Positions 6,361-40,487 of a stretch of 64,000 nt of DNA are shown in pieces. Numbering within the stretch: the first letter of the stretch is position 1; each line of letters begins with the position of its first letter. A program made the translations under genes and the position numbers. This DNA comes from Alysiella crassa DSM 2578 (GTDB taxonomy: Bacteria; Pseudomonadota; Gammaproteobacteria; Burkholderiales; Neisseriaceae), in NCBI RefSeq assembly GCF_000745955.1, contig NZ_KN050786.1, forward strand, positions 135,266 to 199,265, given 5' to 3'. The notes beneath the pieces were generated by a model. That model had not been told where the DNA came from and made no database searches. It saw only the letters and a list, made by a program, of their open reading frames with translations.

Positions 6361-6600
6361 GTTCCTAATGTAAGTTGGAAATCCCGACCTAACACCAAAT
6401 AGGGCGGGCAAACTGGCGGATTGGCGTACCGTCCACTAGGTAACGGCGTATCTTGCGATACTCCGCCAGCTTACCCATAAAATTGGTAACTTTAAAATGC
6501 AACAAAAGAACCGCACAAGGACGGCTTTGAAGCCCAGTGATAAACGGAACGCCAATTCCGCACGACTGATTGAAGTCGTATCGGTATATTAGCGATACTT
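6361..6600 (-). ncRNA. Structured leader upstream of the KilA-N gene, candidate C4-type antisense RNA
   Basis: This 240-bp stretch has no gene but is rich in paired segments on the minus strand. It contains hairpins CGACT/AGTCG, CGGAA/TTCCG and GGCT/AGCC, and an 8-bp long-range stem (CTGGCGGA/TCCGCCAG, plus-strand 6413-6420 with 6462-6469) that encloses GTATC-GCAA-GATAC. It ends just before the KilA-N start. C4 antisense RNAs of phage P1 and many prophages occupy the same place upstream of antirepressor genes. The match to that family is inferred from position and folding only. Confidence 0.45.
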
Positions 6601-31086: not shown

Positions 31087-31605
31087 TTAACCTAATTTGC
31101 ACAAAAAATTACCTAACTGTTGTTTTACCGCGAATGTGTTTGTCAGCAAATCTTCGTGCGCCGCGCCCAATAAATCGCATTCCATCAATAAGATATGCTT
31201 AGGGCGGCTACTATGCAAGCTGGCGCGAATGCAGGCAGCCTGAAAGGGAATATTGTGTTTTTTGGCGAATGTGGCAGCGCGTTGATTAGCTAATTTCAAT
31301 ACGGGTAACTGACTGATTTCCATATGAAATATACGCACATTCAGCACCAAAATGCGTGCAGCAAACCAATCGGCTTCTTCCGTGAAATGTGTGGGGCTGG
31401 GCTGGTTGAAATCGTGGCGTTGTGCGGCAATCAGGGTGGCGATGGCACGAATTTCGGGCAACATGGCTTCGCAAATACTGTCGGGGTGTGCAAAAGGGGC
31501 AGCGAGCAAATCGGTGCGATGAGCATTGCCATTGGTAATCAAGCTGCATTTGCGCAACGCGGTTGGTATTGGATGGTGTGGGATAATTTGGGGCAATGCG
31601 TTCAT
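31087..31605 (-). CDS. Unknown protein behind a Trp/Tyr leader and attenuator
   Basis: A 172-residue soluble protein, MNALPQIIPHHPIPTALRKC. It contains four spaced cysteines (KCSL, ICEAM, AACIRAS, MECDLL) and a helical centre FAARILVLNVRIFHMEISQL. A DUS is translated as QAA near residue 120. I do not recognise the family. The leader upstream (promoter, 23-codon leader peptide rich in Trp and Tyr, terminator) predicts expression when charged tRNA-Trp or tRNA-Tyr is scarce, so a role connected with aromatic amino acids is a reasonable guess only. Confidence 0.65.
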   Translation of the reverse strand: MNALPQIIPHHPIPTALRKCSLITNGNAHRTDLLAAPFAHPDSICEAMLPEIRAIATLIAAQRHDFNQPSPTHFTEEADWFAARILVLNVRIFHMEISQLPVLKLANQRAATFAKKHNIPFQAACIRASLHSSRPKHILLMECDLLGAAHEDLLTNTFAVKQQLGNFLCKLG

Positions 31606-31672: not shown

Positions 31673-31705
31673 AAAAAAAACCGCCGCAAATGAATTTGGG
31701 GCGGT
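31673..31705 (-). terminator. Attenuator terminator
   Basis: The minus-strand stem ACCGCC/GGCGGT, extended by CAAAT/ATTTG after one mismatch, is followed by eight T. It lies 26 bases past the leader peptide stop and 68 bases before the downstream gene. Confidence 0.85.
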
Positions 31706-31730
31706 CGGATGGAGACATAAACAATGAAGT

Positions 31731-31802
31731 TTACGCGCACACAATATCGTACCGCACCGAGATGCGATACCAATACCAAGCGTGTACACGAATTGTCTTC
31801 AT
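31731..31802 (-). CDS. Leader peptide rich in Trp and Tyr
   Basis: A 23-codon frame: MKTIRVHAWYWYRISVRYDI then VCA and TAA. Codons 9-12 are TGG TAT TGG TAT, and a third Tyr is at codon 18. AAGGATAACAACC precedes the ATG. With a strong promoter upstream and a terminator hairpin downstream it has every part of a transcription attenuator. Confidence 0.75.
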   Translation of the reverse strand: MKTIRVHAWYWYRISVRYDIVCA

Positions 31803-31843
31803 GGTTGTTATCCTTGAAAGAATGGGAAAAAATGATGTAGCTA

Positions 31844-31873
31844 ACTATAGTGGATAGAATGTGGCATTGTCAA
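31844..31873 (-). promoter_or_regulatory. Strong sigma-70 type promoter of the leader
   Basis: On the minus strand TTGACA (31873-31868), an 18-bp spacer and TATAGT (31849-31844). The -35 is a perfect consensus. The leader peptide ATG is 42 bases downstream of the -10. Confidence 0.8.
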
Positions 31874-31968: not shown

Positions 31969-32874
31969 TTACACGCCCCATTTAGGCATTAAAGCGTGGG
32001 GAATGTACAATTGGTCTAAAATACGCGCCACAACAAAATTTACCATATCATCAATGGTTTGTGGTTTGTTGTAGAAACCTGCGGCAGGTGGTAAAATCAC
32101 GCAGCCGTTTTGCGACAATTTCAGCATATTTTCCAAATGAATGCTGGAAAGCGGCGTTTCGCGCGGCACAATTACCACAGGGCGGCGTTCTTTGATGGAC
32201 ACATCGGCGGCGCGTTCAATCAAATTTTCAGACAAGCCGTGTGCAATTGCGGCAATCGTACCCATGCTGGCAGGGCAAACCACCATTGTGTCCGCCACAT
32301 TATTGCCTGAAGCAATCGGCGCAAACCATTCTTCACGCCCAAACACGCGCAGTTGTTCTGGGGAAACTTGATATTTTTGGCACAACATTTTTTGTGCGTC
32401 AGTAGGATTAGTGGGTAACTGCAAATCCATTTCTTGCGCGGCAACGACTTGGGCAGCCTGCGAATACACCAAATAAACACGTTTACCTGCTTTCAATAAT
32501 TCTTCCAGCAAACGCACGCCATAGGGCATACCCGATGCACCTGTGAATGCCAATGTAACGGTTTGAATGCCAGAAGATTGTGAATGCTCAACTGTGGAGG
32601 CAGCCTGAAACGTACCGATGGGCGCAACAAATTCGCCGTTTTCATGATTAAAATCCATCCAACCTGTTGGTTTATTCATGCCTTTTTCTAATTTAGCAGC
32701 CATACGATCGCCAATATTCAATTGCTGACCGTTGGGTTTCACGGTTTTAGCGCGTACTTGATAAAGGTAAGCGGGTTTGTCGTAACCACATTTTTTGGCT
32801 AATTTGGACACGCCACCTGCTTCACGAATGAGTTTTTCAAAATTGGCAAAACGATTATCTTGAATATCAGACAT
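31969..32874 (-). CDS. ubiX: Flavin prenyltransferase UbiX with N-terminal helix-turn-helix domain
   Basis: A 301-residue fusion. Residues 1-75 look like a phage-repressor HTH (FEKLIREAGGVSKLAKKCGY, ending LEKGMNKPTGWMDF). Residues 107-300 are full-length UbiX: VTLAFTGASGMPYGVRLLEE, ADTMVVCPASMGTIAAIAHG, ERRPVVIVPRETPLSSIHLE and VILPPAAGFYNKPQTIDDMV. UbiX makes prenylated FMN for UbiD in ubiquinone synthesis. No internal ATG could start a free UbiX. The linker FQAAST is encoded by a DUS. The frame is continuous, so the fusion looks real. Confidence 0.85.
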   Translation of the reverse strand: MSDIQDNRFANFEKLIREAGGVSKLAKKCGYDKPAYLYQVRAKTVKPNGQQLNIGDRMAAKLEKGMNKPTGWMDFNHENGEFVAPIGTFQAASTVEHSQSSGIQTVTLAFTGASGMPYGVRLLEELLKAGKRVYLVYSQAAQVVAAQEMDLQLPTNPTDAQKMLCQKYQVSPEQLRVFGREEWFAPIASGNNVADTMVVCPASMGTIAAIAHGLSENLIERAADVSIKERRPVVIVPRETPLSSIHLENMLKLSQNGCVILPPAAGFYNKPQTIDDMVNFVVARILDQLYIPHALMPKWGV

Positions 32875-39281: not shown

Positions 39282-40487
39282 ATGTCAAACCCCTACCAAG
39301 CCCCCAATGAACAAGGCTTTTTTGGCGAACACGGTGGCGTGTACGTTGCCGAAACTTTAATCCCAGCTTTGCAAGAACTCGCCCAAGCCTATGCCCAAGC
39401 CAAACAAGACCCTGAATTTTGGGCAGAATTTCACCGCGATTTGGCAAACTATGTCGGTCGCCCCAGCCCCGTTTACCATGCGGCAAGGCTGTCTGAAAAA
39501 TTGGGTGGCGCACAAATCTGGCTTAAACGCGAAGATTTGAACCACACAGGCGCACACAAAGTGAACAACACCATCGGTCAAGCCTTGCTCGCCAAACGCA
39601 TGGGCAAAAAGCGCGTCATCGCCGAAACAGGCGCAGGACAACACGGCGTGGCAAGCGCAACCGTAGCCGCCCGTTTTGGCATGGAATGCCACGTTTACAT
39701 GGGCGCAGACGACATTCAACGCCAAGCCCCCAACGTGTTTCGCATGAAATTATTGGGCGCGAACGTGGTCAGCGTGGACAGTGGCAGCCGCACACTCAAA
39801 GACGCGATGAACGAAGCCATGCGCGAATGGGTGGCGCGTGTGGACGACACCTTTTACATCATCGGCACAGCAGCAGGACCCGCACCCTATCCCGAAATGG
39901 TGCGCGATTTCCAATGCGTGATTGGCAACGAAGCCAAAGAACAAATGCTCAAAGCCATAGGCAGGCAGCCTGATGTCGCGGTGGCTTGCGTGGGTGGCGG
40001 CTCAAACGCGATTGGTTTATTTTACCCTTATATTTCAGAAACTTCGGTGCGTTTGGTGGGCGTGGAAGCAGGCGGACACGGTGTCCACACCCCAGACCAT
40101 GCCGCGCCCATTACATCTGGCGCACCGATTGGCGTGTTGCACGGTTTCCGCAGCTATTTGATGCAAGACGAAAACGGTCAAGTATTGGGAACGCATTCGG
40201 TTTCCGCAGGTTTGGATTACCCTGGTATCGGGCCCGAACACAGCCATTTGCACGATATTGGGCGTGTGGAATACCATGCCGCCAATGATGAAGCCGCTTT
40301 ACAAGCCTTTGATTTATTGTGCCAATATGAAGGCATTATTCCTGCGCTGGAAAGTTCACACGCGCTGGCGTGGGCGGTGGAAAATGCCCCAACAATGCGC
40401 AAAGACCAAGTGATTTTGGTCAATTTGTCGGGGCGTGGCGATAAGGATATTAATACTGTTGCGAAATTGAAAAATATTGAGTTGTAA
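39282..40487 (+). CDS. trpB: Tryptophan synthase beta chain
   Basis: A 401-residue PLP enzyme making tryptophan from indole and serine. The PLP lysine lies in [20 protein letters not shown]; the phosphate loop is [15 protein letters not shown]. Other typical segments are [20 protein letters not shown] and [16 protein letters not shown]. trpA is not next to it, as in other Neisseriaceae where trp genes are scattered. A good ribosome site (TTGGAG) precedes the ATG. Confidence 0.97.

Follow-up and report, generated by a model that had tools for sequence, protein, structure and literature searches.

Leader-peptide attenuators usually precede biosynthetic operons, transporters or full synthetases. 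The locus described here raises the question of why a short leader with alternating Trp and Tyr codons stands in front of a single unannotated gene, and what that gene may encode. It lies in the window, i.e., the entire 64,000-nucleotide stretch of the Alysiella crassa DSM 2578 genome that was analyzed. We consider it highly probable that the leader is a trpL-type ribosome-mediated transcription attenuator, whose Tyr and Trp codons govern a single gene for a protein with a fold like that of tryptophanyl-tRNA synthetase (TrpRS) but without the catalytic motifs. In other words, a deeply conserved attenuator appears to control just one gene, whose unannotated product seems to be descended from TrpRS or to resemble it.

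All parts of the locus are on the minus strand. The promoter consists of a -35 box (TTGACA, 31868-31873) and, after an 18-nt spacer, a -10 box (TATAGT, 31844-31849). A Shine-Dalgarno sequence (AAGGA, 31811-31815) precedes a leader ORF of 23 codons (31731-31802, ATG at 31802) that encodes MKTIRVHAWYWYRISVRYDIVCA followed by a stop. In its middle are the codons TGG TAT TGG TAT (WYWY, 31767-31778), a terminator hairpin with an eight-T run (31673-31680) follows, and the gene for the 172-residue protein occupies 31087-31605. These elements were found exactly where the first-pass annotation had placed them, and trpB at 39282 is, as it had also noted, not linked to the attenuator. The window contains 2642 short ORFs of 14-45 codons, and no other one has a run of four W/Y residues including Trp. 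The folded leader RNA is also unusually stable (z = -5.0; 0 of 200 shuffles equally stable). Genes near the locus include ubiX and argG. The UbiX ORF (301 residues, 31969-32874, minus strand) carries about 100 extra N-terminal residues with a faint carph-isopro domain match (E 0.032), which suggests a possible fused DNA-binding-like segment. The copy counts of AGGCAGCCTGAA (78) and AGGCTGCCTGAA (49), which we take to be Neisseriaceae uptake sequences, are those of a Neisseriaceae-like genome. Near the start of the window, a C4 antisense RNA scored above its gathering score (6400-6482, minus strand); because this RNA family is known from phages, a prophage may lie there.

The gene for the 172-residue protein is conserved in two bacterial families. 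Searches with tblastn detected it in 23 of 25 genomes of the family but not in any of 16 further genomes of the order, and 45 of 46 genomes from the genus of one relative have it. Across the class, only 2 of 369 genomes gave a match, namely the genome of origin and one marginal case (E 3e-4). Scanning of contigs added homologues in Neisseria, Snodgrassella, Eikenella, and Stenoxybacter, as well as in the Chromobacteriaceae genera Crenobacter, Paludibacterium, Pseudogulbenkiania, Chromobacterium, and Aquitalea. A normal trpS is present elsewhere in 18 of 19 family genomes searched and in 16 of 17 genomes that carry the gene, the one miss being an incomplete assembly.

For the protein itself, searches against Pfam, NCBIfam, and PDB sequences and profiles gave nothing significant, in agreement with the first-pass annotation that it is not a recognized biosynthetic enzyme. 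Neither TIGR00233 nor the Pfam TrpRS family matched it, a faint PHP_C match was below the cut-off of that family, and the sole PDB match below 0.001 was a designed repeat protein. Twelve positions are invariant among 41 sequences of the family, including R53, R63, D79, W80, and R109. The HIGH and KMSKS motifs are each absent from all 41 aligned members but present in 39 of 39 TrpRS sequences. Structure prediction pointed in a specific direction. The AlphaFold2 model of the window protein (pLDDT 87.4) resembles in its fold that of an Aquitalea homologue (pLDDT 80.0; about 27% sequence identity), and the best VIA-align match for both was the gonococcal TrpRS 5tew (Z 10.5 over 143 residues and 12.5 over 155 residues, respectively). 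In Foldseek and VIA-align searches, TrpRS filled nearly all top rows for both models; the lone exception among the matches shown was 3u1v, which is titled as a de novo design. The query-normalized TM-scores are low (0.31-0.46), and in most rows the aligned part starts near TrpRS residue 30-40, past the HIGH motif. A TrpRS fold is thus predicted for the 172-residue protein.

The leading alternative accepts the attenuator but takes the protein to be a Rossmann-like one specific to the lineage, with a convergent likeness to TrpRS; it might then serve aromatic metabolism as an enzyme or a binding protein. This would fit the failure of sequence searches to link the protein to any family. It would also fit the hhalign comparison of the family with TrpRS, which barely exceeds decoys (E about 0.05; about 3% of shuffled decoys score as well) and puts Arg84 of the family at the position of the TrpRS pocket Asp, a residue that we take to read the indole. 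However, the best hhalign register falls on the Trp-pocket helix and is identical for two TrpRS sets, and the models of two distant members select TrpRS almost exclusively. Convergence is therefore considered unlikely. A degenerate relative of TrpRS is supported by structure prediction and weakly by sequence. Given a fold match with weak sequence support, the protein is named here as TrpRS-like in fold and is not filed as a TrpRS. The conservation of this gene family across two bacterial families and its likeness to a degenerate TrpRS go beyond the first-pass annotation.

The leader is conserved together with the gene. Among 56 distinct homologous loci from Neisseriaceae and Chromobacteriaceae, every homologue examined has the same arrangement, with a short aromatic leader ORF upstream in all 56 and a TTGAC-type -35 box in 54. 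An anchored Trp codon is present in 54 of the 56 leaders (the remaining two read FFYYYRW), and it is directly preceded by Tyr in 53 of these 54. Both TAT and TAC occur at the Tyr position, so that the codon meaning, and not the RNA alone, seems to be conserved. In 38 of the 56 loci (e.g., L004, L026, and L041), the -10 box ends only 6-10 nt upstream of the leader ATG, suggesting that the leader peptide is probably translated without a 5' leader; the window locus differs from most relatives in having an ordinary Shine-Dalgarno sequence.

A covariance model built for the leader element, R1, gave one strong match per genome in all 23 family genomes that carry the gene; the two family genomes that lack it (G010 and G018) gave no strong match. 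Elsewhere in the order, matches were weak except at close homologues of the Chromobacteriaceae type (L151-L154). A separate family of the order (f250) has the same kind of leader in four of six genomes, where it precedes a highly divergent protein of 171-182 residues; these leaders (L155, L156, L157, and L166) read YYWYR, YYWWR, or FYWYR. This protein is probably a distant homologue of the 172-residue family, judging from a weak hhalign alignment (E 0.023). Occurrence of the element in front of other genes was also considered, but outside this family and the divergent genes of f250 the R1 matches were weak, none being better than E 1e-6 except one in G664 (E 3.5e-7). These weak matches often come in pairs on both strands, and they are probably terminators. 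In one genus (g7), the region upstream of the full-length trpS (L163, 279-403; G016:C2, near 84780; R1 E 5e-6) contains a terminator as well as a 21-codon ORF that includes a single Trp codon; this is possibly a second Trp attenuator, placed before the real TrpRS gene. No Rfam family, Trp_leader and T-box included, matched the window leader region at gathering score, and the same search over 20 related loci returned none except one tRNA. The best sub-threshold match, RF04312 (trpB motif), reached 24.2 bits against 59 and covered mostly the terminator. No published description of this Trp/Tyr element was found in the open-access literature.

The leader RNA can form the three hairpins expected of an attenuator. 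Folding and covariation place region 1 at 31762-31777, where it overlaps the WYWY codons, and region 2 at 31743-31757, where it serves as both the 3' arm of the 1:2 hairpin and the 5' arm of the antiterminator. The GCGG core of region 2 (31755-31752) begins 17 nt past the start of the second Trp codon, and the same distance from the Trp codon is kept in 47 of 54 leaders. Region 3 (GACCGCC, 31700-31706), as located by alignment folds, is common to the antiterminator and the terminator, and the 3:4 terminator hairpin extends approximately over 31679-31706. In an alignment of 50 leaders with 500 shuffles, the terminator pairs in 91.7% of cells (covariation 0.233, compared with 0.128 ± 0.011 shuffled; 0/500) and the 1:2 hairpin in 84.0% (0.260, compared with 0.202 ± 0.011; 0/500). 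The antiterminator core GCGG[U/C]:[A/G]CCGC is paired in 46-50 of the 50 leaders, with UA, UG, or CG as the outer pair. Because this helix is nearly invariant, its covariation in the same alignment was not significant. By computation, the terminator and antiterminator are mutually exclusive.

Ribosome stalling was simulated codon by codon, and the nascent RNA was folded at the point where the final terminator arm is still missing. A stall that places Trp in the A site lets the antiterminator form in each of the 54 leaders. In the window leader, it forms only at stalls on Ala-Trp-Tyr-Trp-Tyr (at most 0.13 upstream, and zero from two codons downstream). In these simulations, region 2 is exposed only by stalls on the WYWY codons, give or take about one codon in either direction with an assumed ribosome footprint of 10-16 nt. 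Two computed results count against the switch. First, in the full-length window RNA at equilibrium, a stalled ribosome does not keep the terminator from beating the antiterminator; the switch must therefore be kinetic and depend on the order of cotranscriptional folding. Second, in the absence of any ribosome, the 2:3 pairing is favored in 31% of leaders as long as the final terminator arm has not been transcribed. Taken together, the conserved leaders, covarying hairpins, and stall simulation support the ribosome-controlled attenuator that the first-pass annotation had proposed.

In vivo, such an attenuator would be read out as follows. With ample charged tRNA, the ribosome would clear the WYWY codons and cover region 2, the 3:4 terminator would form, and transcription would end before the gene. 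In a shortage of Trp or Tyr, a ribosome stalled on the Trp or Tyr codons would mask region 1 and leave region 2 free to pair with region 3; the 2:3 pairing would prevent terminator formation, and the 172-residue protein would be expressed.

It could also be that the leader works in trans, through its terminated RNA or its peptide, like rnTrpL and peTrpL of Sinorhizobium, and that the downstream gene accounts for no more than a part of the picture. A short terminated RNA is indeed expected, and most relatives' leaders look leaderless, as reported for the translation of S. meliloti trpL (PMC7298713). Yet the element is linked to this one downstream gene and its conserved geometry fits a cis switch, which makes such trans action quite improbable. 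An ordinary terminator next to a chance aromatic ORF, without regulated attenuation, is very improbable indeed, since the leader, its spacing, and the covarying alternative hairpins are kept across two families, even though terminators with GGCGG stems are common and probably account for the weak R1 matches elsewhere in the genomes.

Under the favored reading of a cis-acting attenuator, shortage of charged tRNA-Trp or tRNA-Tyr most likely induces a catalytically dead protein of TrpRS fold with a putative regulatory role. A regulatory role is proposed rather than a catalytic one, with the protein acting, for example, as a partner of TrpRS, tRNA-Trp, or an aromatic-pathway enzyme. That the protein helps to regulate the supply of aromatic amino acids or their charging, in whatever way, is nonetheless suggested tentatively. 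HisZ, the regulatory subunit of HisG, offers a model for a more specific and somewhat more doubtful proposal. By this analogy, dead TrpRS relatives in most Neisseriaceae and in Chromobacteriaceae might be the trans-acting output of a sensor of Trp/Tyr-tRNA, as regulatory subunits of TrpRS or of an aromatic-pathway enzyme, and would constitute an undescribed aromatic starvation response. Many of these bacteria are host-associated, and the near-universal presence of the gene in the genus of one relative suggests that it may be a basic part of sensing aromatic amino-acid limitation. An uncharacterized gene family thereby gains a concrete inducing condition and testable partners.

The closest known systems differ in what is controlled, how it is sensed, or where it occurs. 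The trpL attenuators of E. coli trp and S. meliloti trpE(G) share a leader ORF whose Trp codons lie in region 1, the 1:2, 2:3, and 3:4 hairpins, and the intrinsic terminator. The element described here differs from them in its mixed Tyr-Trp codons, its absence from Rfam, and its control of an uncharacterized protein of TrpRS fold instead of biosynthetic genes. In Streptomyces avermitilis, leader-peptide attenuation has been predicted or reported before trpS2, an extra TrpRS gene (PMC1262725), and an attenuator of an auxiliary Streptomyces TrpRS gene is attributed to Vecchione and Sello (2010) in a later paper (PMC4787780). The arrangement resembles that before the TrpRS-like gene. However, trpS2 is a TrpRS gene, whereas the protein described here lacks HIGH and KMSKS and a normal trpS is separate. 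The hisZ/hisS* genes of bacilli also represent an aminoacyl-tRNA synthetase paralogue, with predicted control by a His leader peptide (PMC2965389), and thus share the combination of a synthetase paralogue and a leader with cognate amino-acid codons, although they belong to the HisRS family and to another phylum. Finally, anti-TRAP (rtpA) of Bacillus subtilis is a small regulatory protein induced by uncharged tRNA-Trp (PMC11255114). While it belongs to Firmicutes, involves a T-box sensor, and is an unrelated protein, it shares with the present system a response to uncharged tRNA-Trp that yields, as we infer for the 172-residue protein, a small regulatory protein and not an enzyme.
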